Assembly: GCA_026075535.2 (NCBI GenBank)
Contig: AP026540.1
Location: 5,208,001-5,272,000, forward strand
Length of the DNA stretch: 64,000 bases
Source: Tricholoma matsutake
Lineage: Eukaryota > Basidiomycota > Agaricomycetes > Agaricales > Tricholomataceae
Reading direction: 5' to 3'
A model generated the notes under the pieces. It saw only the letters and a list, made by a program, of their open reading frames with translations. It was not told the DNA's origin and made no database searches. This document shows, piece by piece, positions 5,015 to 27,335 of the stretch (positions are counted from its first letter, which is position 1; each line of letters starts with the position of its first letter). The position numbers and the translations under genes were made by a program.

Positions 5015-5721
5015 CTTCGCGAGAAGATAGTACGGATATGTTGTCTCACAAGGGCTCATTAGATTAAACTTCCATCACCTTTTTGCGTGAAGCCGATTTC
5101 CGTTCATCAAGCGAACACGAGAGTTTCATGAAGTAAAAAATCATACTCTACTGTTCTAAATTCAAAGTGTCCAGACTGTCGCATAAGTAACTCGTACGAA
5201 ACAGATCGTCTCTAAGCAGCTATTCAGTTATCGTGTAAAATACTTATGAGACGGAGCACACGGTACGTAACATAGCCGACACCCGGCCTCGACACGCCGC
5301 AGCGTTAGATTTGAGACTTTCTCAAGCTCAAGGAGAGCATAACCTCGTTCTCAATAAATTGAGAACTCGGAACAAAATGTGATTCCGTACCAATACTAAA
5401 AGCGCTGTAAGGCTTATTCGAGGTATAAGCGACGTCAATTGTGTGATGGTGGATTGGCATTTCAGCATCTTGAACATGACTTTTTATTGTCAGACTTTCT
5501 ATTCAGCTCAATAAATGCTTGCGGAAAGTCACCCAATAAAAACACAGTCATGAAACTGACAATTTCTGATCTACCGATATTTTGGCTCACAAATTCCCCA
5601 GAGGTGTATGATAAGTGCTGGCAAGACGACCGTCGCGCGACGCCTGAATTTCTGTGAATTGTACTGTTTTGAAAAGAAGCCTGTGTCAAACAACGACAAC
5701 TATTACATATTAAAAATAAAT
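5015..5721. other. Stretch without recognisable gene
   Basis: Between uS10m and the Helitron I find only short ORFs without family features. It may hold uS10m 3' UTR and decayed repeat DNA. Confidence 0.35.
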
Positions 5722-5733
5722 ACTTACATGATT

Positions 5734-5753
5734 CCCACTACTTTAGTAGTGGG
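5734..5753. repeat. Perfect hairpin at the Helitron left boundary region
   Basis: CCCACTAC, loop TTTA, GTAGTGGG form an 8-bp stem. The preceding ACTTACA (5722-5728) and the following GTAGTGGGTTTT resemble ACTTACA (26574-26580) and GTAGTGGGCTCT (from 26594) at the other side of the Helitron, which suggests a terminal signal. Confidence 0.5.
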
Positions 5754-5890
5754 TTTTAGGGTTGGATGGACAACGAGATGCAAATGCCCGATGCCCAACG
5801 CTGATGTGTCCAGTTTTCATTGGCTCCCAATCACCTGATCTAAATTGATAAGTGGTTTTTGTAAGCAATCCACGGATTTTGTCTCAGATC

Positions 5891-7589
5891 ATGTCGCATC
5901 GCCCTCGATCATGCGTAAATATTTTCTCAACCTCATCTTCGTTGAATCTGTCTATCATGTCCACCGCTCGTATCCTTGGCAAATCAGTACCGGCCATTTT
6001 CGACAATCAGCAACCTACTTGTAGAATCTCTCGGCGCTTTGCTTGTCTGTTGAAGATCCCTGAGTCAACGGAATATGTCTCGTTGCCTGTGAATGCCGAT
6101 ATGGGGAGCGGAAAACTTACTTCTGTGGTCGATTTGCATGTCGACGAAGAGTTAACTTCTGAACTGGTGCTTGGCAAAGACTGGATTTCATATTATCGAG
6201 AATATGCCATTTCCGAAGGCGTGATAAGCCCCATCTGTCCTCAGAATGAACAACGGTCAGAAATCGCAGGTGCGTTCGTTCATCGTTTTCTATCCATAAC
6301 AATTTGAAAGCTGTTCAATTACAGATGTTGATAGACTTATGGAACCTGTCGAACACGCCGACGATGAATTTGAATGCGATCTTCCAATCGCTATCAACCC
6401 GTCGTCATCCGCTTCGAATTCTATGTCGATTTCTAAAAATCTCCCAATTATTCACGAAATATTATTAAATCCTGCGTGTGCACTTTATTCTGGAGTTCGC
6501 TCTTCCGAATCAGAAGCTTTGCTTATATCTCATGGTATTCCTCTGCGTGAAAAAGACTTTCATGCCTCTGTTATGGCGCTTATCCATCATCTCGTCAATG
6601 GGCTTTGTGTCTATCATTCCAATATCGGATGTCAATCCATTGTAAAGCGTAATGATGCTCTCGATCTCTCGTTACTTATTTCTGATCAAATTCTCAAAGC
6701 CCCTGTTGATATTCTTCAAGTAATATGTAGTAGCCTTGGATACTCTTATAAGGCTGCTGTTGTTGAGCATTCTCAGCTAATACGTTGGTTGCAAGCCCGA
6801 CATTGTTCCTTAGAAGAAAATGAGTATCCAAGCTTCCAGACAACGTTTGACGGATCTGAAAAGTGCGTAAGACCAGAAGCGTTAGCGATAGCTGCCAGTC
6901 ATGGCTTATCTCCTGTGGGGACGATACACGACATCAAAAATTCGGTGGTTGCTCACATTGCGGATGCAAAATGTACTCAACTCAGTAAGTCTGTTCCAGT
7001 GCTTCCTCCGGCATGCGTCAAATTGCGAGAAGATTGTCCGTCTGAGTTGCCGCAGATACCTGATAATCAGAACGAGCTCCGTATTTTTTTTTAATCTCAA
7101 ATAGGTAGCAATGTTCGGCGTCGACCTCTATGTCGCTTGCTTCAGTTGTACAACATACAACGTGATTCTAAATCTTCGACCTCCGTTTTGCGGCGTTGTT
7201 TGAAGCACTATGTAAATGGTCTTCGGAAAGGAAAAGCAGTGAATGGACAATCTTCTCGTACTTTTCCATCAATAACCTCCAGAACGACTCGTCTTCGAGA
7301 AAATTGGCCACAGATGGTACCACAGACATTAAAAGATAAGATCACTCAGTTGTTTCGAATGGAGACTTCTAGTCAAGCTCTTCAGAATGTGACATGCGCA
7401 TGCTGTGCAGAATCACGCCCAGTATCGGATTGCGAATGGTTCTCTGCTGACTCTGTAGATCTGAACTGCTTTCGTGGCTCAGATAATGCTCAGTCCGAAA
7501 TCCATCCTAATTTTGCAATACCTCATCCATTCACTACAGGCATTCTGAGAGACGCGCTGTTGGGTGCGTCAAGTGCATCGAATGATTGA
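5891..7589 (+). CDS. Helitron protein, N-terminal exons
   Basis: The first ATG of the open frame is at 5891. Exon 1 (5891-6269) contains a 'LVLGKDWISYYREYA' segment; a 55-nt GT-AG intron (6270-6324) joins it to exon 2 (6325-6984), and a second intron (6985-7104) joins exon 3. Exon 3 carries a Cys-rich segment (NVTCACCAESRPVSDCEW) followed by 'FAIPHPF'. These precede the Rep domain in agaric Helitron proteins; their biochemical role is unknown. The passage into the next block near 7560-7590 changes frame and no convincing intron is visible, so the protein may already be broken there. Confidence 0.6.
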
Positions 7590-10500
7590 TGGTGATCGGA
7601 ATGAAGATGATACGGCGTACGAACTCAATCTTTGTTCGTCATGTTGGAACTCTGTTAAACACCACAAATTACCTGCCCTTGCGCTCGCGAACCACACGGC
7701 TCTTGGAACAGTACCCTCTGAATTACAAGATTTGACGTTGATTGAAGAATCCATGATCGCTCTGTGTCGCGCAAAATGTTGGATCGTTCAACTGAGTGAG
7801 CAACAGTCTAATCTCACCTTTCCCCAAACTCAACGAGGATTTCATGGGAACATAATTATTTATCCTCAGCAGCCTCAACGAGTGGCCACAGTGCTTCCAC
7901 CCTCCGTACAAGAAATCACATCTTTCATATGTGTCATCTTCGTTGGTTCGACACCTCCATCTCGTGAATGGCTTCGAGATAAAGCTAAACCTCTCGCAGT
8001 ACGTGCCCAGAAAGTTCGAGAAGCATTGATATGGCTAAAAGCTCATAATCCGTTGTATGCTGACATCGACATCAACTACGATGTATTAAACAGCTTACCA
8101 ATGAACGACCTTCTACCATTTCATGTAGAACATGTACAATCACACACAGATGACGATGTTCTAACCTCACGATACGATGAGCTCACACCTACAACGTCGA
8201 GTGTCCATCAGCAGCCGCCCCCTGATGCTGAGATAGCATTCCAAAAAGTGGTGATATCAGATATCGATGGTCATGCGTCTTCCAACGAGCTGCGAGCAGC
8301 GGCGTTATCACATATCCAGAAGAAGGGAGGCTATCTCCAAATTCCTCATGAACCTAATCCTGAAAATGAATTTGTTAATCCTTGACTATTTCCCAAACTG
8401 TATCCGACGTTGTACCCATTTGGAGTAGGTGGACCCGAGGATCCGAGACGCAAAGAACCGATATCGTTCAAGCGGCACATTAAACATTTCCTGAACTTGG
8501 CAGATCGTAGATTTCAAGAACACTCCTCATTTCTATTTACAGCATTTAATATGATACAGAGACGGACATTGCTATTACACACAAGCTTGAAGACAAAGCG
8601 CAGAAACTTCTCGTCTGTAGCGAACACATTTGCTACTGCATCTCCGGATGTTATTCATCGAGTCCTGGAAAGAGTTGTTTGAGGAGACTTCAAGACGGCT
8701 TATGATGATGAGGAGCGCCGAGTATTAAAGTTAATGCAAGAGGTTCGTGTGATCAACAGCCATGTACCTGGATCTTCTGCAGCATGGATCGACATGCGCA
8801 ATCAGATTCGCGCAATGATCACTCAGTTTGGAATGCCTACGTTTTTCATAACCATCAATCCTGCTGATGTGTACAACCCTCTCGTTAAATTTTTGGCAGG
8901 TTCTGACATCGATATCGATCAGTTGTTACCAGAGCAGGTACCTAACTATTGGGAACAAGCACTCTTAGTCGCTCGAAATCCAGCGGTGGCCGCAAAGTTT
9001 TTCAACATCTACATGAAGGCATTCATCCATTCTCTACTTGGTTGCAATGCTAATGGGGAACATTCACAAGAAGGGATTTTCGGAGTTGTCAAAGGTTACT
9101 ATGGATGCGTCGAAGCTCAAGGCAGAGGGTCTTTACACTGTCATATGCTCATATGGCTAGAAGGAGGATTGAACCCCGATGAAATTAAGAATCGAGTCCT
9201 GCAGGATGACAGTTTCAAAATTCGCCTGTTGAATTTCTTAGAAGACTCCATCTCTACGTCCGTACCTGATGATCCTGACCCTACTCTAACAGTTCCATCA
9301 TCGACGCACCATCCGTGTTCGGTTCGAGGAATGAACCGAGGATGTCGAGCACAGTCTTTATTTGCAGAGCGCGTTAAGGATCTCCATCATCTTGCTGAGC
9401 AATGTCAACGTCATAGCCATCGGTCCACTTGTTATAAGTACTGCAAGGATTCAGAGAAAAAAGAATGTCGATTTGATCTCGACGAACGTCATTGCTTATT
9501 GGACACCGTTGTGGACCCGGACACAGGCGAGATCGATTTAAGACAATTGGACAGGATGGTGGATAATTTCAACGACACAATTCTTGCTGCCATTCGTTGC
9601 AACATGGACATCAAATTCGTCGGTTCTGGTGAATCTGCAAAAGCGATCTTGTACTACATTACGGATTACATCTCTAAGGCTCAGCTGAAGGCACATGTTG
9701 CTTATGCTGCGCTGGAAATGGCAGTTCGCAAATTAGGAGAGTATAATCCTTGGGATGATGAACCCACCGTTCGAGCTAAGCGCATGTTGCAGAAATGTGC
9801 CCACGCCATGATCGCACACCAAGAGCTATCATCACAGCAGGTAATGTCGTATTTACTTGAGTTAGAAGATCATTTCACTAGTCATGAATTTAAAAACTTG
9901 TTCTGGACCTCGTTTGAAGCTGCCGTCAACAGTGAAGATCCCAGTCCAGAATGTTACCAACTCTCCGATGCCGATAACAAGAAGCGTATACAAGGCACAA
10001 CGTTGAATGAAGGAGACGAGGAGATACAGGGCGAAAATGAAGAGGCTGATAGATCCGCTGATGTTGATGAAAAATTCCCGCCAGAAGATGTCGTTGAGCA
10101 CGATGAGATAGGAATTTCCTTAGGAGATGGTGATGAGATCGTAGCGCACTCATCACAACTCACAGATTATATATGTCGATCCAAGGTTTTGCAATCCTTG
10201 ACATTATGGGAGTTTTGCGCTCAGACAGAGAAGGTTAAAGCAGCGCGGGTATCGCAAATCGACGATTTAGAAGACGTGAACCTAGATGACATTCTCATGT
10301 TCCCGAACAAGACAAGATCGACGTACTGGTTTAAGACACCTCATGAAGAATGTTACACGCATGCGTTGAAGATTATCCATTCAAATTCACGACGTGTTCC
10401 TGTCTTGATAGGCTCTGTTCCAAGGCGAGACCGGCGAGAGACATACGCAAGGTATTGTCGTCTGATGTTGATACTGTTCAAACCATGGCGAACTGCGTTC

Positions 10501-12041
10501 GATTTGCGGACACCACAAGAATCATGGGAAACAGCGTTTGAGAATTTTAACACTAGTACGCTATGTTCTGAAGAATTTAAACAAACGATGAACAACATGC
10601 AGTTGTTGCATGAATGTAAAGACAGCCACAACGATCATTTCCATGAGCGCCATACCCACCAGTTGCGATTGGCACCCGAGATCGCTGGTGATGATACCGT
10701 GGCCGTTGAAGATGCACTTGGAGGCATTGATGATTCGCAAATCCTGCAACATTTAGAGTCAATCGATGATTGTTATTCAGAACGGAAAAACTGTACGAAT
10801 TTCAATACACTTGACTGTGTGGATCATGCTGAACAAGGAGGCTTATTTGATGTAACACCGTCAGATGCTCGTTACAGTCTTTCACCAGCTGACTATGTCC
10901 ATGTCGAACAACTGCATCTTAATTCCGTTGATCTAGAAAGCATGTGGAAGACCGAATATAAACGTCGTCGTGATACATGGAAGCAAAGGACAACTGCTCA
11001 CGCAGATGACAGTATCTCTCTGACCTCAACTGCAGACAGTGCGAGCACGAGTACCGCCATCGTTGACGGAAACAGTGTTGAAGTCACGACGAGTTTAAGA
11101 GCACTAGAATGCTTGATGCCTTCAACTGAACTCCAGTCTGATAATCGTATGCTGGCAAACACTGTTGATACGGACCAATTAGCACACAAATGGTTATTGA
11201 ATCCAGAGCAACTTCAAGCATTCAGAATCATCACCGAACATAGCCTACATCAGCACGACAACCCGTTGAGAATGTTCATATCCGATGCTGCTGGAACAGG
11301 AAAAACTAGAGTTATCAACGCTGTGAAAGACTTCTTTGAGCAGAGAGGCCAACCAAGACACTTCCGACTGTCATCGTACATGGGCATCGCTGCTCGTCAC
11401 ATTTCTGGCATGACTCTTCATTCTCTTCTGTGTTTAAGCACGAAGAAGAGCAAGAAATCGAATGATAAATCTCATCGAGATTTAATGGCGATGTGGGAAG
11501 GCATCGATTACCTATTTATCGATGAAGTGTCGATGATCAGCTGTCAATTTTTATGTCGAATCAGTGAGGCACTCAGTTTTGCTAAAGGTGATCCTCGAGC
11601 TTTTGGAGGAATTAATATCATCTTCGCTGGAGACTTTGGCCAGCTGCCACCTGTGAAAGAGACCAGATTATATTCACATATCGATACGCGAGAGCGAGCA
11701 GCAACAACTCAACGTCAGAAAATTGTGTTCAGGAAATTACTCTGGCTCACGGTCACAACAGTAATCATTCTTCGTCGATCAGAACGACAAATTGGCGACG
11801 ATAATAAACAGTTTGTTGAGTTACTTGCACGGTTATGCGAAGGCCGATGTACTGCCTACAATTTCGATCTGTTGAACAGCCGTGTGATCAGACCTGGAAT
11901 GAACATCTCCTTTAATAGCGAACCGTGGCGACATGCTCCAGTGATCGTGTACGATAACGCGGCAAAAGACGCAATCAATGTAGAAGCCGCTTCTGCGTTT
12001 GCGAGACAAACGGGACAAGAATTACATTGGTACTACGCTGA
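7564..12041 (+). pseudogene. Helitron Rep/helicase, 5' part (interrupted by two TGA and by Gypsy-1)
   Basis: One frame runs from 7564 to the gypsy insertion. In order: a DUF6570-like zone (NLCSSCWNSVKHHKLPALAL), 'LYPTLYPFG', then the HUH Rep endonuclease with GRGSLHCHMLIWL (catalytic HxH pair) and ILYYITDYISK (tyrosine motif), then a PIF1-type SF1B helicase with Walker A AAGTGKT, Walker B LFIDEVSM and GDFGQLPP. Rep nicks and joins single strands for rolling-circle transposition and the helicase unwinds. In-frame TGA codons at 8383-8385 and 8680-8682 sit where CGA (Arg) would keep the frame, e.g. before GDFKTAYDDEERR. Gypsy-1 then cuts the helicase inside YYAED, so this copy cannot make an intact protein without splicing out 10.6 kb. 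Confidence 0.9.
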
Positions 12042-12239
12042 TGTGGTGACCCGGGGCTTGACCCCGCATTTGTATATATTATATTTCTTTGCTATTGACC
12101 TGGCTGGCCCCTATAAAGGGACCAGCCTTCTATTTTACATAAGCAATCCTTTACTACCACCTCGAGTACACACGATAATATACGTTATTTGTGTTTAGCT
12201 CCTGAGTGATCTTAAGGGACCCCCCTCCGACTCACAACA
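12042..12239 (+). repeat. Gypsy-1 5' LTR
   Basis: 198 bp, TG...CA ends. It differs from the 3' LTR at 12053 (G versus A), 12183 (C versus T) and 12190 (T versus C). Each difference converts a CpG in one copy to CpA or TpG in the other. Confidence 0.97.
12102..12127 (+). promoter_or_regulatory. TATA box inside an LTR palindrome
   Basis: TATAAA at 12112-12117 is centred in an inverted repeat: GGCTGG and CCC on the left, GGG and CCAGCC on the right. This is the likely core promoter of the retroelement; the same arrangement is in the 3' LTR at 22532-22557. The palindrome could form a hairpin or cruciform around the box; that it has a regulatory role is inference. Confidence 0.6.
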
Positions 12240-12492
12240 GTTTTTTAAACACCCAAACTCGTATAGAGTTAAGCTCGACATCGCCCCATCAGCGATCATC
12301 ATCAACATGACCCTGAACTTCTCCCGCGAAGGGAGAAAATTCTCAACGCAATCAGCGACGGAAGCATATCCGTCACTAGGACCTGAATCAAGTTTCTTTT
12401 GCACTCGACTCTTTGCTTTTCGCCCGCTGCTATGACCGAAAATTTTTCTTTTCTCTCCATTGCTGAAGACTGTACAACAAGACCGACACCAT

Positions 12493-12753
12493 TGTTGGAG
12501 CAGACTATATACGCTGCACAGTGGAAGAGACAACACGTTCCTTACAACCTACCTGGGGTTTACTTAGACTTACAGCTAGGGTTAGCAGAGGTAAGAACAC
12601 TATATTCCTACTATAGTACAGGTTCTCCTTATATACATAATAGTAAGGATATCACATGACTCCAGAGGAATATGCATATGAAACATGTATCAATATTGGT
12701 AATTAATGTGGGAGAATATGCACATGCAACAATATTGGTAATTAATTTCAACA
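12493..12753 (-). mobile_element. Ty1/copia solo LTR nested in Gypsy-1 leader
   Basis: TGTTGG...CAACA ends; the sequence is a close reverse-complement match to the copia LTR at 60416-60651 along its length, with extra bases near the end. The 5-bp duplication ACCAT flanks it (12488-12492 and 12754-12758). The right copy of the duplication regenerates ACCATGG, so the ATG of ORF1 (12757) is kept. The orientation is opposite to Gypsy-1. Confidence 0.92.
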
Positions 12754-12756
12754 ACC

Positions 12757-13293
12757 ATGGCCTACACCAAGGCCAAAACCAAGAACAAACTGAAGCCTGC
12801 TCCTAAGCAGGCCGCGCAAGGTAACTCTCATCCATCGCCATCAGGCTCGGATTCTCCTTGGCATGCGCCGAGAGATTTAACTGGACCCCATCCACTTGAG
12901 GCGCATACAAGCACCTCGAGAAACAACGTTTCCCCTACTAGGGATACCCTCGAAGTGCATACATCCGCTTCGAGAAACATCAATTCCTCTGCCCTCGGAC
13001 TACACCATCAACGGGCCACCATTGAGGATGCTGACAACAGTGATCCCAAATCCAGAAAATCTTCCTCGTCAAAAAACAGTCAACGAGACTCTCAACCTAA
13101 CCCAGGACCTCCTCCTGGTTTGCTGAACCTTTCTCCTCTGGATGAATTGACCCCAGAGCCCAACAACAACCAGGTTACCCCCGGTAGTGGTATCGATCTT
13201 CCCCGCAACAACCAGGTGTACGATACACCTGGATTATTTCCTGCCATGTGGCCGGATAACACCATCAGCGCCTGCAACGCCGATGAACACTAA
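12757..13293 (+). CDS. Gypsy-1 ORF1, Pro/Ser-rich protein of unknown function
   Basis: 178 codons starting at the ATG that follows the copia LTR. The product is basic at the N-terminus (KAKTKNKLKPAPKQA) and then rich in Ser, Pro, Asn and Asp without a recognised domain. It ends with TAA at 13291-13293, 11 bases into the next frame, whose ATG is at 13283. It may be the first part of the capsid precursor with a frameshift into the main frame, or a separate small protein. No gag motif is visible in it. Confidence 0.6.
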   Translation: MAYTKAKTKNKLKPAPKQAAQGNSHPSPSGSDSPWHAPRDLTGPHPLEAHTSTSRNNVSPTRDTLEVHTSASRNINSSALGLHHQRATIEDADNSDPKSRKSSSSKNSQRDSQPNPGPPPGLLNLSPLDELTPEPNNNQVTPGSGIDLPRNNQVYDTPGLFPAMWPDNTISACNADEH

Positions 13294-16200
13294 CGATCGG
13301 CTGCGCCGACGAGAAGAGAAAAAGCCCCTCGAGAAACCTCGAGAGGATGAATCAGACGAAGAGTTTGGAGCTGAGCACTTCGCTCAGATCGCGACGGATA
13401 TGTTTACCCGTTGCATGGATGCAAGAGATTTTGAACCTATTAAGTTGGAAAACCAACTTAAAGATCTGGCGTTGAGTTACGCCAGACACTTTTCTGGTAG
13501 GAGTATATTTAACCCTACCATCCCTCGTCCCGCCACAGCGGAACAAGATCCCAATCCTATCCTACCTTGTTCCACCAACCCTGCGGAACGACAAGATCCT
13601 TCCGCACATAGACGTAGTTCCCCACGTCTACAAAACCCCAAGTTATCTCGTGAAGTACCTTCTAAGAAGAAGGTACACTACATCAACAACAACAGGATCA
13701 TCCTTCAAAGGATACGTGATGGCGATATCCAGGATGGATGTCCCACCTTGATCCCCGACCAGGGGATCCGCTTCGACAAAGATGGTCAACCTTGGGATAA
13801 GGATGACACTTCATCTCGCCATCAGAAGCGGGACATCCCACCCTCTGGAAATTCCAGATGGCCTGTGCAGAGTCACGCAGGCCATGGAGGACCACCAGAT
13901 GGAGATGGATCCAGGGGTGATGATAATGGAAGTGATAGCAACTCAACGTATAGCACGTCAAGCGACGACAGTACCAATTATTCTTCCCGGATAGAGGAAG
14001 AGGCGTCCCGCAGAAACTCGTTGAATCATCGATGAGAAACACGGACTCACAATTCTTCCAGATGTACGCCATCTGGACATTCTGGTACCCAACGAGAGCC
14101 AAATAGCCCTTACTGGTCTACATCTTCCCATCCCGATTCTTATTGAGAAAAAGGCTCTCGCCGTCCCTCAAAATATTTGAGGGACATCCATACCAAGATA
14201 CATAGACAGATTGACAACAAGGTCTCTGTCTTGACAGAAATTCCTACCACTGGAGGCAAGAATGGTCCCTGTGTTCCCAATCTGTCAAAGTACGGCGGAT
14301 TACCTGACACCGAAAGCTTTGAAAGATGGCTAAATACCCTTCTTCGGTGGTTGAAGGTGAACAAGGTATGCGGCCCTGAGCTGGACTCAGACCATATTGA
14401 ATATACGGTGATGTTCCTTGAGAACACCGCCCTCACTTGGTTTGAGGATAGCGTTGACAGTGCATACCGCCCACACTCAATCTGGACTTTCAAAGAAGTC
14501 ATCACTGGCCTATACGACTGGTTTGTGCATGAAAATGCGATGCATGATGCAACCGATAAATTCTGGCACGTCGAATATAACACCGAAGAAGGTGTTATGG
14601 GCTATTACCACAAACTGGAGCGATATGCTACCAGGATGATACAGGCACCTGATCCTTTTACATTCAAAACGCAATTAGTGACCGGGTTGCCCACAAGCAT
14701 CATCTCCTTTGTACTGGACAAAGGATGCTCCGCTGAGACAAGCTCAGTGCAAGATATTTTACACTTCGCCTGCCAGGCAGAAGAAATAGGTAAAATGAGA
14801 AAACACTTCAACAAAAAGAAGCATATAATGGATTCCATCAAGTCGAAGAGCGCATCCTCTTTGACTAAAAGTTCTAAAACAAAAGACCCTTCACCTGAAC
14901 GGTCTCATGAACAATCCCGAGATCGTTCCCAAAAACAGGATAAGAACTATCGTGACAACTCTAAATATCTGGGTTCGAAGTATCCTACCAAGGAAGTTCA
15001 AAGTCACGGCGATAGCGATCACCATAACAAAGATCGTTGTGATACTCAACATCGCTCGTCTGGAGGAAAACCATCCAGACATTCCAGATCCAAATCAGAC
15101 AAAAGGTCTGATGACAAGAAGACCCTGACTTGTTACAGCTGTGGAGGTCCACACTACTCCACAGATAAGGGCTGCCCTAAATACGGACAGCCAAAACCAT
15201 CGGCTAAAATGTACGCCGCTCAGGAAGGATCAGGCTCTATGACTGATCTCCAGACATCCCGTGCTCAACCGAGCAGTGATCACCACTCGAGTCCTACCAG
15301 GGACTTGGATTTGCACTCTGCGATGAGTGAACGACTCACCGCAGCATACAGCGACTCAGAGGACAACACTCCCTCTGAGTATGGGTCTGCGTTGTCAGAC
15401 ATGAACCCTGATGGTTCTCAGTACAGTTCAGAAGGCAAACTGTACAACTTGGAATCTGACACTGGAGATAACCCCAGTGAATATTCTGGATCAGAGCACT
15501 TTGGTGCAATCCGAGAAATCCTTTCAGAGTATGACTCCAATAGTTGCCCATCCGCCCAATCAGTATCCGACTCAGAGGAAGACTCTGAGGACGAGATGGA
15601 GAAGAAATCTCCATCATTTTCTGAAAGATTAGGCGTCATGATGGACAACCTTTTCAAAAACAAACTGCGCTTTAGAGGCGCGACCACTTTGAGGAAATCC
15701 TCAAAGAAAATAACCCATCCTCCTCGCTCAGAGAAGGACAACCATTGCTTCATGGCAAAAATGAGGCTTCATGAACTTGAAGCTTTCATCCTCCTTGATT
15801 CAGGCTGCACATCTGATTCAATCTCACCTGAGTTTGCCATGTCGGCGAACCTTAAAGCCCACAAATTGAAGGAACTGGTGTCATTGCAATTGGGCACCGT
15901 TGGAAGCCGTTCGAAGATCAACTTTGGACTATTCACCAATTTTGAAATTGGTGAAATCAAAAACACCCACTACTTTGATGTTGTTAACATCGATAGGTAT
16001 GACACCATTCTGGGCACCATGTTCATGAGAAAACACGGTATAGTATTAGACTTCGAACATGATGAAGTACGCGTCAAGGGCAAACACCTCGATACCATCA
16101 TCGAGGGCCCTAACACTTTCAAGCAAGCCCGGCGTCATGCTATGTGGCCTCAACCTTCCAAGGATGAGTGACTTGACCGCGGCCACCTGGCCGTGCAAAA

Positions 16201-19200
16201 GAAAAAAGACCCGGACAAGCCTGGTCCGAGTTCTATGAAAGTGCAACCTCCATCTGTGAGACGTAGGAATGTTGAAATGGAAGAAATAGACAATGTTGAC
16301 AAACATCATCCATTGAAGCTGAAACTTTCAGACCCCGTCCTTTTGGGACCCAAAGAGGGACCCCTGAGCAATGAAGAGGACGATCTGGAAGAGATCGTCC
16401 AGGAATTCACTCAGGATAGATTTCCCGATGGACCCAATTTTGAACCTCCCGGGTTCGATCCCTCTATCCCTGCGGTACTTCCGCCAGATCAGGTCGATGA
16501 CCTGAACGACGTACTCTTCGCAATTTGCAAAGATCTGGCTGATAAAGCTAAAAGTAAAGGACCTCTTTCAAAGAAGGACCTTCCACGCCTCTGTGAGGAG
16601 TGGAAACAATCTTGTCAGGACATCCTTAATGGAGTACCTGACAAACTACCTCCTTTAAGGGAGATAAACCACCATATCCCACTGGTGGATGAGAAGAAGA
16701 AGTATAACTACTATCTTCCCAAATGTCCGGACTTGATGAGGAAACCCCTCGCTGAGAAAATATCCAAGTACTGCAAGGCAGGCTGGTGGCGCCCTGCCCG
16801 CGCGGAGCAAGCAGCTCTGATGCTAGTAGTTCCCAAGAAAACAGGGAAACTTCGCACTGTGATCAATGCAGTGAAACGTAACGCTAACATGGTGAAAGAT
16901 GTTACACCATTTCCTGATCAAGACTTGATTCGTCTTGATGTCACTTGAGCGAAGTACCGCTCGAAGATTGACCTCTCGGATGCCTATGAGCAGGTCCGAG
17001 TTGCGCCAGAAGACATCTGGAAAACCACATTCTCAACTGTTCAAGGCGTTTACGAAAGTCTTGTTATGCAACAAGGCGACAGCAATGCACCATCAACCTT
17101 TCAAAGGTTGATGAACTCCATATTCCGAGACTACATCAGAATATTCGTCCACGCCTACCTGGATGACATTTTTGTGTTCAGTGACACGATCAAAGAACAC
17201 CAGAAACATCTGGAGCTCGTGTTTAACAAGCTACATGAGCATTCTCTGTACCTTCGTGCAGAGAAGTGTGAACTCTATGCTGAAAAGGTAGAGTGTCTCA
17301 GTCACATGATTGATGAACATGGCCTACATGCTGATAGCGATAAAATGGCGCGTATACAAGAGTGGAAAACTCCTCATAATTATCATGAAGTCCAGCGTTT
17401 TCTGGGACTCATGCAGTATCTGGCACATTTCCTGCCAGATATAAGTGCTTTCACTAGTCCGCTTTCTGCGATGACTAAAAACGGCCAAGCCTTTTTGTGG
17501 CAACCATTGCACGATCATTGCTTCCAAATGATTAAACACATCTGTTGCACGACACCAGTGCTGAAGCCGATCGACCCAGATTCACCTGAACCAATATGGG
17601 TGATCTGTGATGCCTCAGTCTTTGGGACTGGGGCAATGTATGGTCAGGGACCCGAGTGGCAAACTTGCTGCCCTGCTGGGTTCCTGTCCAAGAAATTCTC
17701 CGACGCTCAAAGGAACTACTGTACCTTTGAGCATGAGACGATTGCCATACTTGAGGCACTCCTCAAGTGGGAAGACAAACTGATCAGTAGGCGCATTCAT
17801 GTCGTCACCGACCACCAGGCACTTGAGTTTTTCCAAACTCAATGCCAACTGTCTGCTAGGCAAACGCGATGGATGGAATATCTATCGCGTTTCGACTTTG
17901 ACATTCGTTATGTCAAAGGCAAATTGAACAAAGTAGCAGACCCTCTGTCCCGCTACTACCAATTCGACTCTTGGGATGATGCTCCTTTAGTCCAACACTA
18001 CGTCTTCACAGACATACGTCTCAACCCCAACCACGAGGATCTCCTGTGGGATCGACATCTCGAAATCAAAAATTGAGTAATTGAAACTCGTTCTGCTGCT
18101 TCCCAGCAGAAACGAGTTGGTGAACAACTAAAAGCTCTTCGAGAACGAGTCAAAGAGCATGAGGCAGCCGCAGCCATAATGACTGCAAATGCAGAAGAAG
18201 TAACCACAACTCCTTCAGACACCAACCAATCGCAGGATGATCCTTCGATTTATGCCTCTCAGGCTAAAGGGCCTGACCTGCACATTCACATGTCAGAGTT
18301 AGACCCCCTGAACGACAATATCCGCAAGGGATATGTCAATGACAAACATTTCAAGAAGGTTCTTGAAAAACCTAAGGACCACCCGGACTTCCAGATTCGG
18401 GATGATTTCATTTGGAGAAAGAACAGAGGAGGTGAAGATGTTCTTTGCATCCCCACCTCTACTTCCAAGGGTGCGACCTTACATGGTCATATCATCGAAC
18501 AAGCCCACACACTGGTAGGGCATTTCGGCCCTCTGAAAACATCGGAATACATCCGACATTGGTATTGGTGGCCTCGACTTCAATACGAAGTCAAAAAGTA
18601 CTGTGATTCATGCGAACCTTGCATCCACTCGAAGGGGGAATACCGCTCCCCTCGAGGCAAGCTGCACTCATTACCGACACCCATGAGACCATGGGAGTCA
18701 ATTGGAATGGATTTTATCGGACCCTTCCCAGAGTCCGATGGATTTGACTACCTTTGGGTAATTATATGTTGTCTGTCTTCCATGGTTCACCTTATCCCAG
18801 TGAGCACGATGATGACAGCATCGCAACTATCTCCCATCTTCGTGAAGGAGATTGTCCATTTGCATGGACTACCTGGCTTGATCGTTTGCGATCGAGACTC
18901 TAAATTCATGTCCAAATGGTGGCGTGAAATCCACCGTATCTTGGATGTAAAGATACTCATGTCCATGTCATTCCATCCTCAGATGGACGGAATAACGGAA
19001 CATGCAAACTGTTCGATCACTCAAATCCTCCAAGTGTTCGTTGCATCCAATCAGAAAGATTGGGTAAAGTTCCTCTCTCTCGTAGAGTTTGCAATAAACT
19101 CTACCATTAACAGAGCAACGGGTATGGCCCCATTTGAAATCAACTATGGATTCTTGCCTCACATGATGCAAGAACTTCCTTCTACAGAATGCATTCCTCC

Positions 19201-20533
19201 CGGATTGCGTACTTTCGCAATGAATGCACTGCGAAACATGGTGATGGCCCATGATAGCATCATCGCTGAAAGAGTCTTTCAGCAGCACTATGCTAACAAG
19301 CATTGGCACGACGAGCCCAATATCAAACAAGGAGACCTTGTTTACCTTTCCACCAAAAATCTTGCGTTGCCAAAGGGACGCGCAAGTAAGCTGCTACATA
19401 AATTTGTAGGACCCTACAAGGTCCTACAAGCTTTACCCAAGAAATCCAGCTATGTGTTGGATCTTCCCAGCGAGTTGAAATGCTGGCGTATACACCAGCG
19501 TTTCCACGTGAGCCTACTAAGGCCTCACCACCCTAATGATGACTTGTTGTTTCCCAACAGGCATTATCCTGACGCATATGACTTCAGTGCCCCAGATGAC
19601 ACCGAATGGTACGTCAAAGAGATCATGGCTCACAAGTGGTGTGGCCGTACCGTCCAGTTTGAAGTCAAGTGGAGTCTGGGAGACACCACTTGGGAACCTT
19701 TAGCAAACTGCAACGATCTTGCAGCTCTAGACGCTTATCTGGCACTGATGGGTGCCAGAGACTGGCAAGAATTGCCAAAACACGCAGGAACTCCTGCACA
19801 TCGACGAACTTAGCTATTTTGAAATTTCAAAGACACGTCCAGCAGATTTCAAACTCCGCAACTGTAAATCACAATGCGTGGAGTTTCAATTTTTTTCTTC
19901 CTTCATCGCTTGGTACATTACCATGGCAAGTATTCCACCAGACAAGGACGACCCCATGGGGGACGATTTCGATGACAAAGAACCTAGCCAGACGCGCGAG
20001 ATGGGCCCCAGTGGCCAGTCTCAAAGGGGGAAGGAGAAGCAGAGAGAGCTCGAGCCCACCGGCTCAAGCAGCAGCAACACTTGACACCATCGTTTGCCAA
20101 GCCCTGGCGAGATCGAAGAAGCCATCAGCACTAGCAGACATTCTGCTAGAGAAGAACAAAACCGGCGAGCTGGTGTGGGCACCAGCTCTTCCGCTACTGG
20201 AAATTGGAGGATTGACGGTGAAGGCATCGTCCTTCACCGAGGCACTTGCAACATCTGCAAGAGCTACGCTTTACATGTGTACACCCACGTGTACAACCAC
20301 GATGATGAATATTTCGATGCGAAGAAGCGTCGAGATTCGGAAATTAACTCTGGTGCTCTCGCCAGAGCCAATCATGTTTATGATGAATATGAAAAAGATA
20401 TTGCTGCCCTCCAGGATACCATCCGGAACCTGGAGGATGAGAATGAGCACCTGCATGAGCAGCTCGATGGATGTTCATCCAAGCGAGCTTGTACTCATGA
20501 ACTCTCTCCTTACCCTGACAGACCTCAGGGTAA
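13212..20533 (+). repeat. Dense series of short perfect hairpins in Gypsy-1 coding DNA
   Basis: Hand-verified stems of 8 bp or more with short loops: 13212-13232, 13441-13460, 13655-13676, 14163-14185, 14577-14598, 15139-15164, 15354-15380, 15421-15445, 15687-15706, 15932-15955, 16378-16400, 17091-17113, 17417-17441, 17749-17768, 17823-17842, 18349-18368, 19082-19104, 19265-19283, 19325-19343, 19404-19429, 20131-20149, 20167-20188, 20408-20436, 20510-20533. Many more have 6-7 bp stems. The longest arms (11 bp) are at 15932 and 17091. Confidence 0.9.
13283..19813 (+). pseudogene. Gypsy-1 gag-pol polyprotein frame, interrupted by five TGA codons
   Basis: A single frame of about 2,180 codons ends at TAG 19811-19813 and is broken only by TGA at 14033, 14144, 16169, 16946 and 18074. 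Capsid-like region at about 14280-14850 (YGGLPDTESFERWLNTLLRW), an unusual zinc knuckle CYSCGGPHYSTDKGC (CX2CX3HX6C), aspartic protease (LLDSGCTSDSIS, ~15790), RT (LRTVINAVKRN, IDLSDAYEQV, YLDDIFVFSD), RNase H (WVICDASVFGTGAMY), integrase zinc finger (H..H..CDSCEPC), integrase core (GMDFIGPF, CDRDSKF) and a C-terminal chromodomain (WYVKEIMAHKW..VKWSLGDTTWEP, 19605-19760) that would direct integration to heterochromatin. The TGA at 16169 could be a natural gag/pol stop; those at 16946 and 18074 cut RT and the RNase H-integrase linker. The DNA is packed with short hairpins. Confidence 0.93.
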
Positions 20534-22325
20534 TTCGTATGCCGGTGCAGCCTCTTGGCCTGCTCCACCTCCTGCTCCCTGCCCCATCATCCCCGACGAG
20601 GACGTTAACATGAACGAGGTCTACCCACCTCTTCCTAACCTTCCACCCCCGAGATATACATTCTCAGGCCCTGATGTTCCCAGGACGGCAAACTGGAAAC
20701 CAGCTCCCAAGCTGCATGGCCAAGTTCCTACGTCCATTCCTCAGAACACTGAGGAATTTGATAGCTGGTCCCAGATGGCCCACACCTCTGGGAACTTCGC
20801 AATGTTGGAACGAATGCACGAGTACATGCAGTTTGTCAATGACACTCCTTCAGGGGCTCAAATGCCCCTGATGACTTATGCCCTTGCCCACTGGAGATTA
20901 CCCGGTTGGCTCCCTGTTAAAATGCAGTCGGCTCGAGGATTACGCTGACTCAATGACCCTACTCACCTGGAGCAACCCTCGCTCCTGGATTCTGCTGAAA
21001 TGTGGGTGCAATTCATGCACCGACACCTGTACCAGTGGCGATTCCACCCTGGTACCCTACTGGACAAACAGAGGGTCTCCCTCCCACATGTCAGGGGACA
21101 ACTCCTGCTTCATCAACAGATTCCTTCAGGGCTCTCCCCTGAAGCCAAACTACTTCTCTAACTTCATATTGTGGAGGTACTAGCCACACCGGGATTGTAC
21201 CAACAGATTCGAGGGCGCAAGCACCTCTCACTGTCCCCCATGTGCCATCGGCAGCCCATGCCAATCAGCAGCAATACAATTTCCCTCGAGGACGTCATAC
21301 GACACCTCGCTTCTATGGGAGTCTTGGATGAGGAAGTCCGAGAAGGTTCTCACTATACCATCGGCTGGCTTACAGCAATGGCTACTGCCAACTCTTCCCA
21401 TTTGGAAGAGTCTTCTACCGCTGCAGACATCGTAAGATGTCTGCGGCAACATCAAAATACCCATTCAGAGGATGCTCCTCTGATGTCTGAACCCTGGTGG
21501 TGGATTGCTGGGCCTAACAACGTGGCCCTTCGAGAGCCACAAAGAAAAAGAAGAAGAGAATCCACCACTCCCACCAGGGGCAGAGCTCCCTCTCATTCAG
21601 GGCGACCTCGCCCTGAATCAATGACTTCCACTTCCCCGTCCTCCAGATTCTCTGCTGGACTATCTGCATCTATGCACACGAGCACCTCTCACGTGGACAT
21701 CCAACCCCCTGCCAGCGCCGGACCTTCATATCTGTCTGGCTGGCATCCAACTCCTCCAGAGGAATATTCCCTGGAGAACGATCCAAACTCAGGATGGTCC
21801 AGATCCCCCCTCATTGTCAAGGTGACTCAAGGCCAGAAGAAGGCCTTGAAGAGAGCTAGGAGAGTTGCCGCCAGCATCCCTCCTAATGGGCACAAGAAGT
21901 CCATTAGCAAATTCACTCCAGTCGCGTCTACCAAGCCATGAAAAGTTAGAGACGCTGAGGACGACGGTGATACCACCGACTCCGTCTCTTCATCCGACGA
22001 TGAAACATTCACCGTCGATAAGTCCACTGTCGATAAGGACCATTTCCCTCTTGATGAAGGGCAAACGACGGATACCTCGGCTCTGGGGAACTCCCCAGAG
22101 ACACCCATATCCCAATTGTCTTCATTGGCATCAAACAACGAAATGACCCTGCTTTCTTCTGCGCCCGATTACGAGCGTGAAGACCCCGTACCCACAACTC
22201 CGGAGGAAGTTAGACGTATGATAGCCGATGTCAACCTCCCTGATTCCTTGTTGAACCTCGACGAGTCCAACATATCATTGTTGAGCCTCAACAATACCCA
22301 CATCCCTGATGACCCTACTAAATAA
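19923..22325 (+). pseudogene. Gypsy-1 third ORF downstream of pol, function unknown, four internal stops
   Basis: ATG at 19923 in a good context (ACCATGG) opens a frame that ends at TAA 22323-22325, about 800 codons, interrupted by TGA at 20082, 20946 and 21939 and TAA at 21159. Features: an acidic N-terminus, a CNICKSYALHVYTHVYNHDDEYFDAK stretch with possible metal ligands, a coiled coil (about 20380-20470), a Pro-rich zone (PAPPPAPCPIIPDEDVNMNE), a 'PRTANWKPAPKL' segment and an acidic/Ser tail. No envelope-like signal peptide or transmembrane segment is visible, so it is not an obvious env. Position between integrase and the 3' LTR suggests an accessory protein. Codon use and hairpin density match gag-pol. 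Confidence 0.75.
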
Positions 22326-22471
22326 GGTCGTCGCGTTTTTTAATAAACAAACGAATTGATTCACCTCGTCGTACCCTGATGATACCCACATGCCAGACGA
22401 TACTCTCTTCGAGATTGTCTACTTACTCAAAACATTATGCTTCTCCCCTGGACGAAGCCTAAGGGGGAGGG
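22326..22471 (+). other. Gypsy-1 3' untranslated region with polypurine tract
   Basis: A purine run AAGGGGGAGGG at 22461-22471 sits directly before the 3' LTR, the expected primer for plus-strand DNA synthesis. Confidence 0.85.
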
Positions 22472-22669
22472 TGTGGTGACCCAGGGCTTGACCCCGCATT
22501 TGTATATATTATATTTCTTTGCTATTGACCTGGCTGGCCCCTATAAAGGGACCAGCCTTCTATTTTACATAAGCAATCCTTTACTACCACCTCGAGTACA
22601 CACGATAATATATGTTATTCGTGTTTAGCTCCTGAGTGATCTTAAGGGACCCCCCTCCGACTCACAACA
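22472..22669 (+). repeat. Gypsy-1 3' LTR
   Basis: 198 bp, ends TGTGGTGA...TCACAACA, followed by the duplication GCTGA (22670-22674). Three transitions separate it from the 5' LTR, all at CpG sites. Confidence 0.97.
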
Positions 22670-22674
22670 GCTGA

Positions 22675-23755
22675 AGATAAACATCACAAGTCAAAAATTA
22701 ACGAACCACATCTAAGAGATTATCTGGCTCACCTACCATCTGGTCAGACTCAACAGTGTCTCGGCCGAATCCCTCTTGTGTTAGGCATACCTGTGCTAAT
22801 CTCTCAAAATTTTGATGTCGAAGGTGGAATCGTAAATGGGAGTCGAGGCACCCTGACTCATATTCGATATCATACTGACGACAATGGGTGCCGGCACTTG
22901 AAATCAGTCATCGTGAACATCGACGATAGCACCGACAACGTCATGGGAACCTTACATGTACACCATCTGCCAATTTTAACAGACTCTATGGAGATCACTT
23001 TCAGCCATCCGTTTACAAAGTGTAAATGCAGAATTCAACGTACACAAGTACCAATTTTGCCTGCATTTGCTATGACTGCTCATCGGGCTCAAGGACAAAC
23101 TCTGAGCAATGTGATTGTAGATCTTCAATCTTGCAGAGGAACTGAAGCACCATATGTGATGATATCCCGTGCTCGCTCTCTTGATGGTCTACTGATCTTG
23201 AGACCATTTGACCATCGCAAAATTTGCTGTCACCAATCTGAAGATGCGCGCAAAGAGAATGAACGATTAGAATTATTAAATGTGATCACGCTCCTAAGAT
23301 CTGGTACAGACACTGAAAAACAACGAGCTTCTCAATCTATGAAAAATTACGATCTGACCGAAGCCAGCATTGCAAGTATCATTCTACCTGACAGCAGTCA
23401 CAGCGACACAACAACTACAAACACTGAAAACTCATTAGAAAAGTATCAAGCTCAACTTGAAAAATTCTCACACCTTCACAGTGTTGAACAAAACCCATCC
23501 CAGTTAAAAGTGTCATTGCAGGCAGAAAGTGATGATGAAGATGATGGACGAGAAGCTGGCGATGGCAGGAACTGTGAAGATGATACACATGCAGAACATG
23601 GAGTTTCAACAGTAATCGATAACACCTCTACCTCTCCCACTGATACTGACGATGTCGCCCTCATGCATTCCTTCTCCGATGTCACACAACCAATAGGTCG
23701 CAAATGCCAACCACAACATGAATACCCAATAGCTAAATGGCGGCAGCACAAGTGA
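22675..23755 (+). pseudogene. Helitron helicase, 3' part
   Basis: The frame continues the helicase cut at 12041. It contains IPVLISQNFDVEGGIVNGSRG and the C-terminal PIF1 motif FAMTAHRAQGQTLSNVIVDL, then 'MISRARSLDGLLILRPF', followed by a low-complexity acidic tail. The apparent stop TGA (23753-23755) is followed eight bases later by GTAAGT; a 65-nt GT-AG intron would splice in phase into the frame read at 23829, so the TGA may be another CGA mutation and the protein may once have continued. Confidence 0.85.
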
Positions 23756-23828
23756 CATCTTGGTAAGTTGCATAAACATCAGACAATATTGTCTCACCTA
23801 ATTTGACATCACTTGTAAGACATCGCAG

Positions 23829-25357
23829 TCCATGTTGTTCCACGACCACCACCACCTTTAAGAATGATGGAGCCTTCGCCCTTGTTCCAAAATCGCAAGA
23901 AAGGATTCTACAAGAGCTTTGTGAAAGAATTCACCAAGTACACGTTCAAAACTCTTGCATCACTTTCTTGTGGTGTCGATTTCTTTGAGGAAAAGGAGAA
24001 TCCGGAGAGGAACAATAACCGTGTCTTTGTCGACAGTGGTGGCAAACCAATGAAGTTGATGTTGTTCGGAGAAATCGTGCACTCTAGTCTAGGGATGCAG
24101 TTGGATTGCAAAGGCAATCATTTCATGAAAGCAGACAATGTGCATTCATTCTTTCCTTTGATATGTTCTGACATCTTATTTGCTTCACCTCAGTTCATTG
24201 TTGACAGTTCCAAGCCTAAATATTGTCTTGCACTCGCCAAACTGACGTGCGCTACTGAAAACATCAGTATTTTATTCGAAAACACACGTCAAGAGTTACA
24301 AAACATATATAACAACTTAACTATGGACGAACAACCAAATGTATGTACACTGTTCTAATTGATATCGTCCCTGACCTTTGTTTCGTACTTCACAGCAATT
24401 CACTCATACAGATTGGTTGAAATCAACCTCATCAACCAACAGAGGTCCCTGAGATCTGATCCTTGTCTATTTTGGACCCATATATGGGGTATGTTCACAT
24501 TAACTTCCATTGTGTGCTTCAATTTTGACACAGCACAGATTCCAGCAACCATTGCCTCTACCTCAAACTCGCACACTATCGGAACCAAACGAAAGCTGGT
24601 TGGAGATGAGGACAATGGTGCCGAGAGCCAAAAATCACAGACTGAGAGCAACAATCAATCAACTGCGTCTACATTGTCCACTGTCGACACACAGAAGATG
24701 ACGTATCCCACTGGTATGTAATGTAGCTCATATTACTCACCAAATATTCAATCACTCTGGTGCCGATAGAAAACGACATATACATCAGCGCTCATTTCAA
24801 CCCACGTCTGTTGCTGGATTACGGCGGCAATTTATTTCGCCATCATGGAGCCATGCTCGTGCAACATGATGTTAGGGACATCAACCTCCATCTGATCCCT
24901 CCTTGGGAATATTACGACAAGCTGCATGCCGGTACCATGGTTTTATGCGATGTCACGCTTCACATGTATCAAATGGCGATCCCCAATGCGAGTGCAAGCC
25001 AACCCAAAATGAGAAAGGTGTGTAATGTACATTCATATGAAACACATTCATTTCCCACCATAACAGACATTCAAAATCAATGTGGAGACCATCAGAGTCG
25101 TCGCAAAATCAGATCTGCCAATTGAACTTTGTACCCAACCAGTGTTACCCACCACGATGGGACTTACGACCTCTGCCGAGCGTTCTACTCATTCACGACT
25201 AGATACCACGCTTACTCCCTGCTCTCAGTTCAAAGTGTTTCATGAGGAGAACGACAACAGTGCTGCAGACGATGACTTGCTGATGAAGATCGAGTGGTCC
25301 AACTCCGAATCCTCTCAAACATCTAACGGCGCAAAGGGGAAAGCATGCTCAACATGA
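23829..25357 (+). CDS. Exons downstream of the helicase, uncharacterised Helitron-linked protein
   Basis: Several open blocks read as one multi-exon gene: a Pro-rich start and 'FYKSFVKEFTKYTFKTLASL' block (23829-24340, donor GTATGT), a short block to a GTATGT donor near 24490, an exon with 'TIGTKRKLVGDEDNG' resembling a nuclear localisation stretch, then 'HAGTMVLCDVTLHMYQM' (to ~25018, intron) and 'FKINVETIRVVAKSDLPI' to TGA at 25355-25357. The last two exons have a beta-rich look and suggest an OB-like or captured agaric protein, but I do not recognise the family. It could be a C-terminal extension of RepHel, a Helitron accessory gene, or a captured host fragment. Splice sites in the middle are not resolved. 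Confidence 0.5.
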
Positions 25358-25582
25358 TATTGTTTCTTTTCTGTGTTCTGGTTTTCTTTTGTCTCTCCTA
25401 CTTTCATTTTGTCACAGAAAAAAAAAGTTAACTTAGTGTACTGATTACTTACTACCGTTGTAACTAACTAACATGTACTACTATGTCTAAATGAACACTG
25501 TAATGTACCCTATCAAGCACGAACAGCCTTTCATGAGTTTCATTCAAACAACAGACGTCACCAATGGTCCAGCAGAAGACTA

Positions 25583-26451
25583 TCAGGAACGGAGTCTTGC
25601 AATCTATTGACTGACAACGCAAAAATAAAATAATGCTGAAAACATCCAACTCAACATGAACACCTGCAACACAATGATATGTTCACTCACACGCACACCC
25701 TCTGTCAACCTTTGTTGCTGAGAGCTGAGCACTACACGACAATGAACAAGATCTCCCACTGCGATGTCACCTGAAACATCTGCCATCAGCACTCCGAGCA
25801 CACAAGTGAAGAACACCATTGACTAACCGTTCACATTGCTGCCATCGACAGGTTGCAAGAACTTGTCAATAATGTTTACAGACTGTTTGCAATCCATCAA
25901 CACAGGTGATGACCATCATGAACATTACTCACCATATAATGAATAAACATGTATATCAACATCCTGTCATCAGTGCCATTTAAATGGTGAATCCATCGCT
26001 CGATCCGAGGACACTGAGCAGGCATCAGAATTATTCACACAACCACAAAATAAACACGAACAGCACCAAGCCTGTAATCAACGAAATCATCGTGCAACTC
26101 GATCCTCTCCAGCGCCGAAATCTCCTGTCGCCAATACAGAGCCATCGTCTTGGAGCACATTTCTGGTCTACCCAACATCAACAATGGCCCGTTATCATTG
26201 ATACATGTTGCCTTGACTTCGCCGATGACACTCAGCTGCACAGGAGACGATACATCTTCCCCTACGAAAAATGAAGTGCCATCAGCAGCACAAGGACCTC
26301 TGCGAAAATCCGACCCGAAGATTGATTCATACAGCGGCGTACACACCAAATCGGCGACCCCAATCATAGACTGCACATCGTCATCCATGGCAGCGATGCA
26401 TACACTAATAAGGACGAAGACAAAATACTTACTCGCGAACAACTGAAACAT
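25583..26451 (-). CDS. Small multi-exon hypothetical gene on the opposite strand, inside the Helitron
   Basis: Minus-strand blocks: 26451-26035 (MDDDVQSMIGVADLV..FFVGEDVSSPVQLSVIGEV..GPLLMLGRPE) and about 25825-25664 (CVLGVLMADVSGDIAVGDLVHCRVVL), with a clean 60-nt GT-AG intron (25604-25663) leading to a last exon encoding IARLRS and TGA at 25583. The alternating hydrophobic pattern resembles an OB-fold, which would suit a single-strand-binding role, but no diagnostic motif allows a firm call. Its position at the 3' end of the Helitron and antisense to RepHel suggests a captured or accessory gene. Confidence 0.45.
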
Positions 26452-26649
26452 TCAGTACGTCACCTCCTTCTCACGCCACCATATCCTCCAGTACTCACCG
26501 CAACGACCAAGATCTGGTGAGAGACAAACCTATATCTTGCGTTATACGTATAAGTGCTCTCGTTATCACACCTACTTACACGGCGCTACGAAAGTAGTGG
26601 GCTCTGCCGCCGCTCGCCGGCGCGCTACCCGGTTATCACTTTAACACCT

Positions 26650-27309
26650 GCAATACGACCCTTTAGAAAACAGATCACATGACACCCACATCACATGTAC
26701 TCCAACTTGAAGTTTCGAAGTTTAAGCATTCAGTGGGGTGAATCAAGACAGTATGACATCAAACAGTGCAGTAAACTAGTGGATTGTCCTAAGGTTCTAG
26801 GGAGAAAACACGTGTATTGGCCAATAATATAGGATTTACATGGGAATGTAACAAAAAATCTGGGCGATGCGTCGTGACAACTCTCGACGCGCCTCGTGGA
26901 AGATAGCATACTGCCAGTAGAGACCCCCCGTCGACACCATGTGTTTCCACCATACTAGTACAGTGCCCTGCTAATCCAAAATCCCACCAGCTCTAAACAC
27001 CTAGACAGGTACATCCATGCTGAGTATATCGTAGGTTTCGGTGTTATAGTGACAGAGGTGGCATGCATCTGCAGCTATGATCTGGACTTCATGCAGCCTC
27101 AACCACTGAGGACCGAGTTGTTGAGGGGATGGCTAAGTGTGCAACCATGTGTCTCATCAGGTTGAGTGATCCTTGAGGAGAAGAGGGGGCTGAGAGTCCA
27201 GAGGAGGAGCAAGAGAAATTAAAAGTCATGAAGTGAGTAAACAAACCCGGCACGCACTCACGTGCTCAGGCTTTACTCATGTGATCTGTTTTCTAAAGGG
27301 TCGTATTGC
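26650..27309. mobile_element. Non-autonomous element with 33-bp perfect inverted ends
   Basis: The end GCAATACGACCCTTTAGAAA and its continuation (26650-26682) are matched exactly in inverse at 27277-27309. There is no ORF inside. No clear target duplication is visible just outside, so the superfamily is open; the length (660 bp) is MITE-like. Its right end is 26 bp before the mL38 start codon. Confidence 0.75.
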
Positions 27310-27335
27310 TTGAGACCTTTTTTTTTGTAGGAAAC

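Follow-up and report, generated by a model that had tools for sequence, protein, structure and literature searches.

Perfect local hairpins far above chance along a Ty3/Gypsy retrotransposon lineage of Tricholoma matsutake and in a related short element

Introduction

Why should the coding sequence of a retrotransposon be studded with perfect short hairpins? A 64,000-nucleotide stretch of the Tricholoma matsutake genome (hereafter the window; C3:5208001-5272000 in the 161,040,721 bases and 13 contigs that we searched) raises this question, as it contains a Ty3/Gypsy element, Gypsy-1 (12042-22669), in which an initial annotation had noticed such hairpins by inspection. We find that the hairpins of Gypsy-1 occur far above chance, lie at conserved places and keep their pairing while the sequence drifts, and that a second, short element with long terminal repeats (LTRs) in the same window is studded equally. 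Below, we compare chance, mutation and selection as causes and ask which strand or molecule may be concerned.

Results

Hairpin excess in Gypsy-1

Two 198-bp LTRs with TG...CA ends and 98.5% identity, together with a target-site duplication, mark Gypsy-1 as an LTR retrotransposon, and the order of its Pfam domains by coordinates (RVT_1, RT_RNaseH, then Integrase_H2C2 and rve) is that of the Ty3/Gypsy group (Table 1). With loops of up to 20 nt allowed, positions 13212-20533 hold 42 perfect stems of 8 bp or longer, compared to an average of 1.85 over 60 dinucleotide shuffles, and the main frame (13187-19813) holds 36, compared to a mean of 2.44 and a maximum of 7 in 300 codon-preserving shuffles. 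The excess extends to an open reading frame (ORF) at 21171-21941 (5 stems vs. 0.27 in codon shuffles) and to the 3' part of the element as a whole (20534-22470; 10 stems of at least 8 bp vs. 0.52), while the leader (12240-13211) has no stem of 8 bp. The initial annotation had counted 24 stems of 8-11 bp; the excess stands, the number was too low, and the five examples that it quoted are all present with the stems it gave. It had also held that structure constrains synonymous choice. Indeed, the codon-preserving shuffles fall far short of the observed stems, and paired changes between families and a depletion of family-level changes in hairpin arms (see below), which in most comparisons is greatest at third codon positions and in sequence beyond the main frame, point the same way.

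Stems of 8 bp (27) and 9 bp (20) predominate over those of 10 bp (2) and 11 bp (3), and loops of 3-5 nt are commonest. The 64 stems of at least 7 bp are spaced by 158 nt on average, in a manner indistinguishable from random (coefficient of variation 0.73 vs. 0.84 for random placement, range 0.67-1.08), and cover an estimated tenth of the element. Stem and loop sequences vary from one hairpin to another, so that the common property is local foldability, not an evident motif, as judged by eye and with no motif search made.

Folding in 150-nt windows gave mean z-scores of -2.51 for the sense and -2.23 for the antisense strand of Gypsy-1 (67 windows; 61% below -2), and values of about 0 for the Helitron (a label taken over from the initial annotation as it stood), the long interspersed nuclear element (LINE) and a second Gypsy element, Gypsy-2. 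The initial annotation had stated that these other elements do not show the pattern by eye. This holds for the LINE (no stem of at least 8 bp vs. a shuffled mean of 0.97) and Gypsy-2 (1 vs. 1.57), neither of which shows an excess; the Helitron side (1-12039) shows a mild one (8 vs. 3.3 in shuffles). A mild excess, 2.4- to 8.6-fold and in part derived from repeats, is also seen in several other stretches, namely 22672-34000 (11 stems of at least 8 bp vs. 4.1), 56800-64000 (5 vs. 2.1) and 39400-44000 (12 vs. 1.4), the last partly due to a 119-bp tandem array. The units of this array (42368-42916) carry a strong inverted repeat, yielding several stems outside both hairpin-rich elements, and outside them perfect inverted repeats of 11-14 bp also occur singly at 30890-30919, 29298-29325 and 33247-33287.

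Hairpins in other copies of the Gypsy-1 lineage

An integrase search of the genome returned at least 81 matches with 66-100% identity, save for one 56-residue piece at 63%. We scanned 31 loci for stems, comprising the window copy and 25 other distinct copies, five of them represented by two loci each, and all 31 are enriched, down to about 67% identity. Seven 9.2-kb copies of about 94% identity (family F1) contain 41-49 stems of at least 8 bp (vs. 1.6-3.2), six copies of about 87% (F2) contain 32-46 (vs. 1.9-3.3), seven copies of about 73-83% (F3 and F4) contain 20-38 (vs. 2.1-4.3), and three stretches of 5.3-5.6 kb with about 67-70% identity (F5) contain 13-16 (vs. 1.9-2.5).

The hairpins are also held in place, as the initial annotation had suggested checking. 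The fraction of comparable Gypsy-1 hairpins with at most one broken pair is 0.75, 0.60, 0.47 and 0.33 in F2, F3, F4 and F5, respectively, compared to 0.41, 0.19, 0.11 and 0.03 expected from the divergence of the flanks. Moreover, at the family level 40 pairs have changed on both sides and 27 of these end as Watson-Crick pairs; sliding the partner by 1, 2, 3 or 5 columns leaves 3-10.

Among the listed integrase copies, most internal stops are TGA, and differences between F1 and F2 are far commoner at CpG sites than at other sites; together these suggest that CpG sites decayed after insertion. A protein search found 981 relatives and, among the 120 listed, those named to species belong to Agaricomycetes. 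Scans of viral and genome contig sets for relatives of the reverse transcriptase (RT), based on an alignment of 30 sequences, gave 71 and 72 pattern matches, none of which was confirmed.

A second, short element with the same trait

The trait is not confined to Gypsy-1, contrary to the initial annotation. A second LTR element on the minus strand (52371-56729) is equally studded, with 27 stems of at least 8 bp in 52000-56800 (vs. 1.55 in dinucleotide shuffles) and folding z-scores of -2.26 for the sense and -1.94 for the antisense strand (25 windows), and hairpin density in the two elements is about one per 115-160 nt. The second element has no ORF of 200 amino acids. Its LTRs and 3' end resemble their Gypsy-1 counterparts, with 59-67% identity in the main blocks. 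Its part at 52566-54000 matches at least 12 other genomic places over at least 900 bases with 72-92% identity, and all ten copies examined are rich in stems (5-11 in 0.9-1.4 kb vs. 0.05-0.2 in mononucleotide shuffles).

The tandem units of the second element are 58-65% alike, with hairpins in corresponding positions. In a four-unit set, two-sided changes affect 3 of 7 pairs, pairing is kept in all 28 cells (in one of them as G-U), and 16 of 500 shuffles reach this result; in a three-unit set, 3 of 10 pairs have changed on both sides (reached by 21 of 500 shuffles). A third homologous set, shared with Gypsy-1, has two-sided changes in 2 of 8 pairs, which is not above shuffles (132 of 500). Across copies, pairing survives 115 of the 161 two-sided changes, compared to 19-39 in slid controls (counted per copy and hence not independent). 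In addition, single pair-breaking changes are depleted, with 16 G-T, 10 A-C and 11 others vs. 25.5, 30.2 and 40.4.

Depletion of pair-breaking changes in hairpin arms

Each comparison between two families used hairpins defined in another family, and control pairs that also pair in this defining family, so as to avoid bias. Among 5432 pair comparisons in the Gypsy-1 lineage (both directions, not independent), single breaking changes number 143 to G-T, 146 to A-C and 110 to others, compared to matched-control expectations of 248, 286 and 238 (totals 399 vs. 772). Two-sided changes that keep pairing number 98 (49 expected) and those that break it 15 (35 expected). As an exception, changes to A-C between F1 and F2 are not depleted in F3-defined hairpins (13 vs. 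13.2).

Copy-specific singletons, most of which presumably arose after insertion, fall in the hairpin arms of F1 and F2 at the ordinary rate, with observed/expected ratios (O/E) of 0.94, 1.04, 1.07 and 0.88. Fixed F1/F2 differences are depleted in arms defined in F3 (28 vs. 55.0, O/E 0.51) or in F3, F4 and F5 together (56 vs. 89.7, O/E 0.62); in either case none of 2000 shifted masks, which themselves average O/E 0.90-0.92, reached this. A broader family-level test with seven comparisons gave O/E from 0.67 (P = 0.00025) to 0.95 (not significant), with 0.56-0.91 at third codon positions and 0.62-1.10 outside the main frame. Since fixed changes are depleted in arms, singletons of F1 and F2 are not, and pair-breaking changes are about halved, the overall pattern favors purifying selection on pairing over a palindrome-writing mutation process.

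Further features of the two elements

The coordinates of both elements are collected in Table 1. In Gypsy-1, the gag domain of the main frame scores slightly below the Pfam cut-off, and Pfam reports SH3_Tf2-1; it finds no match at E 0.001 to the chromodomain that marks the end of integrase in chromoviruses, although a stretch resembling one can be made out by eye. A purine tract precedes the 3' LTR. The insertion splits a frame, as one frame ends within the 5' LTR and another starts at 22778.

No TGG-type primer site is seen 3' of the 5' LTR of either element. After the LTR, 7 bases in Gypsy-1 (12246-12252) and 6 in the second element (56515-56536) match, as complements, a spot within the LTR; these short stretches, picked out by eye and possibly due to chance, suggest Tf1-like self-priming. 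The LTRs of both elements share, at a matching location, a hairpin with a TATA-like loop (12102-12127, 22532-22557, 52484-52506 and 56649-56671); in Gypsy-1 this hairpin has a single unpaired position, and CTAAA replaces the TATA-like sequence in one LTR of the second element. The latter also has an acidic 119-residue frame near its 3' end (52982-53341, minus strand) and a 145-residue frame (55886-56323) with a visual resemblance to the beginning of the first Gypsy-1 frame.

Repeats with 89-96% identity link 12493-12662 in the Gypsy-1 leader to 60482-60651, 3925-4157 to 60703-60916, and 4204-4312 to 60932-61040. Related repeats of 180-406 bp (49078-49483, 57130-57535, 43442-43676 and 42054-42233; 89-95% identical) probably represent whole or partial LTRs of other elements.

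Table 1. Features of Gypsy-1 and of the second LTR element (window coordinates)
Feature	Position	Strand	Basis or remark
5' LTR of Gypsy-1	12042-12239	+	TG...CA; target site GCTGA at 12037-12041; 98.5% identical to 22472-22669
3' LTR of Gypsy-1	22472-22669	+	Target site GCTGA at 22670-22674
Main frame of Gypsy-1 (frame 2)	13187-19813	+	Five internal stops in window copy; gag-like, RT, RNase H, integrase (Pfam)
Third ORF of Gypsy-1, hairpin-rich	20094-20948	+	7 stems vs. 0.29 in codon shuffles
Array of perfect local hairpins	13212-22295	+	61 of the 64 non-overlapping stems of at least 7 bp (loop 3-12) of 12240-22470; other three (7 bp) in leader
Example hairpin within conserved RT motif	17091-17113	+	Alignment of copies
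Example hairpin, paired changes in other families	17896-17918	+	Alignment of copies
Example hairpin, paired change in family of about 67% identity	19082-19104	+	Alignment of copies
LTR of second element, 3' in sense	52371-52564	-	97.9% identical to 56536-56729; target site GTTCT at 52366-52370
LTR of second element, 5' in sense	56536-56729	-	Target site GTTCT at 56730-56734
Body of second element, hairpin-studded	52565-56535	-	31 non-overlapping stems of at least 7 bp
Diverged tandem units, hairpins at matching places, paired changes	53656-55571	-	Unit comparison

Discussion

We suggest that the Gypsy-1 families and the related short element maintain a selected folded state that acts in cis, a reading to which we assign a probability of roughly 0.55. 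Several observations weigh against it. In the Gypsy-1 lineage, there is no clear preference for G-U (143 of 289 vs. an expected share of 0.465, p = 0.32). Two-sided changes that keep pairing lie below control in the second element (2 vs. 8.7, or 14 vs. 18.6 in a less controlled comparison, in which control pairs were not required to pair in the defining family and which overstates the depletion of pair-breaking changes). Depletion of F1/F2 differences is not significant for F4-defined hairpins (31 vs. 37.3, P = 0.16; O/E 0.95 at the family level), and F3-defined 8-bp stems reach an O/E of only 0.85 (P = 0.11). Singletons of F3 are somewhat depleted in arms (O/E 0.87, P = 0.02), and shared minority variants are slightly over-represented there (O/E 1.1-1.23). 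Finally, no conserved loop motif was seen by eye, no motif search having been made.

If a folded state is selected, the hairpins would act in the replication cycle common to both elements. Such a role in cis is likelier than translation control because a pol-bearing and a short element share the trait. In yeast Ty3, likewise of the Ty3/Gypsy group and with stable regions within POL, the POL sequence is reported to be needed for RNA localization and packaging via undefined sequences (PMC11381356); Ty3 differs in having a well-folded core of about 20% as probed by selective 2'-hydroxyl acylation analyzed by primer extension, whereas here an array of perfect mini-hairpins is read from the sequence. 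Given that requirement for Ty3 POL, we favor packaging and reverse transcription as the steps that may use the folded genome, as a tentative proposal. The genomic RNA, possibly together with its complementary strand, would be kept in many small self-contained folds, with stems that stay short of long double-stranded RNA, and would function much as do the structured genomes of RNA viruses.

For a fold of the sense RNA only, G-U is expected to be tolerated better than A-C. In addition to the missing G-U preference in the Gypsy-1 lineage, the second element has only a weak G-U tendency (16 of 26, p = 0.12; the less controlled comparison gives ratios of 0.53 vs. 0.26). A raw excess of A-C over G-U (102 vs. 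62) vanished upon correction for composition. The constraint looks nearly strand-symmetric, with G-U counting as broken almost like A-C, although we are less certain of this point than of the pairing itself. Near symmetry leaves three options, namely DNA, the two RNA strands together, or sense RNA subject to strict stability requirements. Selection might act on the sense RNA alone, with small losses of stability already being harmful, as in the ordered genomes of RNA viruses discussed below. Sense folding is slightly stronger than antisense folding in both elements (pooled p = 0.03) and hairpin loops are A-rich, in line with this alternative and with the weak tendency of the second element; the Helitron, however, shows a similar sense-antisense difference (-0.27), and the lack of G-U preference in Gypsy-1 argues against it. 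We consider selection on sense RNA alone possible, if doubtful. Selection along the whole genome for local foldability of both strands, with Watson-Crick mini-hairpins in template and complement, would serve a step at which RNA as well as cDNA, or the sense RNA as well as its antisense counterpart, must stay self-folded; this seems rather doubtful to us as well, and no account of such an arrangement came up in our literature search.

Escape from, or control of, RNA silencing would likewise draw on both strands, as folds in sense and antisense transcripts could hinder duplex formation or small-RNA access. The near strand symmetry and the scarcity of stems exceeding 9 bp are consistent with such a role; against it, the perfect stems of at least 7 bp span only about a tenth of the element by our estimate, and we regard it as unlikely.

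The hairpins could instead be functionless products of template switching, in which the reverse transcriptase folds back and copies one arm into the other, thus perfecting palindromes. Such a mechanism has been described for RNA genes (PMC8794818), where perfect reverse-complement stems and compensatory changes occur as they do here. In the Gypsy-1 lineage, the paired changes and the perfect Watson-Crick pairing of the stems, with G-U little preferred, are what template switching would produce. However, the clustering of changes in one arm and the neutral turnover seen with those RNA hairpins were not found in the matsutake element: inherited changes cluster in one arm in 3 of 29 hairpins, compared to about 8 expected (P = 0.016; a rough test, with 21 of the 29 from F4). 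Moreover, neutral arm copying should produce paired changes and reversions in about equal numbers, whereas a deficit of 373 breaking changes stands against a surplus of only 49 paired ones, and fixed changes are depleted in arms although singletons of F1 and F2 are not. Template switching, an idea raised by the initial annotation, is therefore disfavored as the main cause, and we judge the reading as a whole quite improbable.

Chance, base composition or codon use, to which the mild and partly repeat-derived excess of 8-bp stems elsewhere in the window might be appealed to, is refuted for Gypsy-1 by the dinucleotide and codon shuffles, which fail to reproduce an excess that recurs in every scanned locus, and deserves practically no weight.

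Selection on RNA structure along whole genomes is known from RNA viruses, in which it is referred to as genome-scale ordered RNA structure. As there, folding energy in Gypsy-1 lies well below that of shuffled sequences along the whole coding genome, with many small stem-loops. In contrast to the viral case, the present one concerns an LTR retrotransposon and predicted folds, with hairpins kept in position, paired changes across families and almost no tolerance of G-U, and the strength of the hairpin array exceeds what is known from viral structures. RNA viruses also contain dispersed packaging-signal hairpins, which resemble the present ones in being small and numerous across the coding genome; the shared loop motif of such signals, which the capsid protein binds, has no counterpart evident by eye in the matsutake hairpins, without a motif search. 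Our literature search found no account of such a hairpin architecture in an LTR retrotransposon, and the accessible text of the matsutake genome paper (PMC10211490) contains none of the terms "hairpin", "inverted repeat" or "palindrom".

If a selected folded state acting in cis is the correct reading, structure would be a cis requirement of LTR-element replication, common to a pol-bearing and a short element. With many copies in one genome, and with copy-specific changes serving as a mutational control, selection on nucleic-acid structure becomes directly measurable. The near-absent tolerance of G-U poses a puzzle for compensatory change via wobble pairs.

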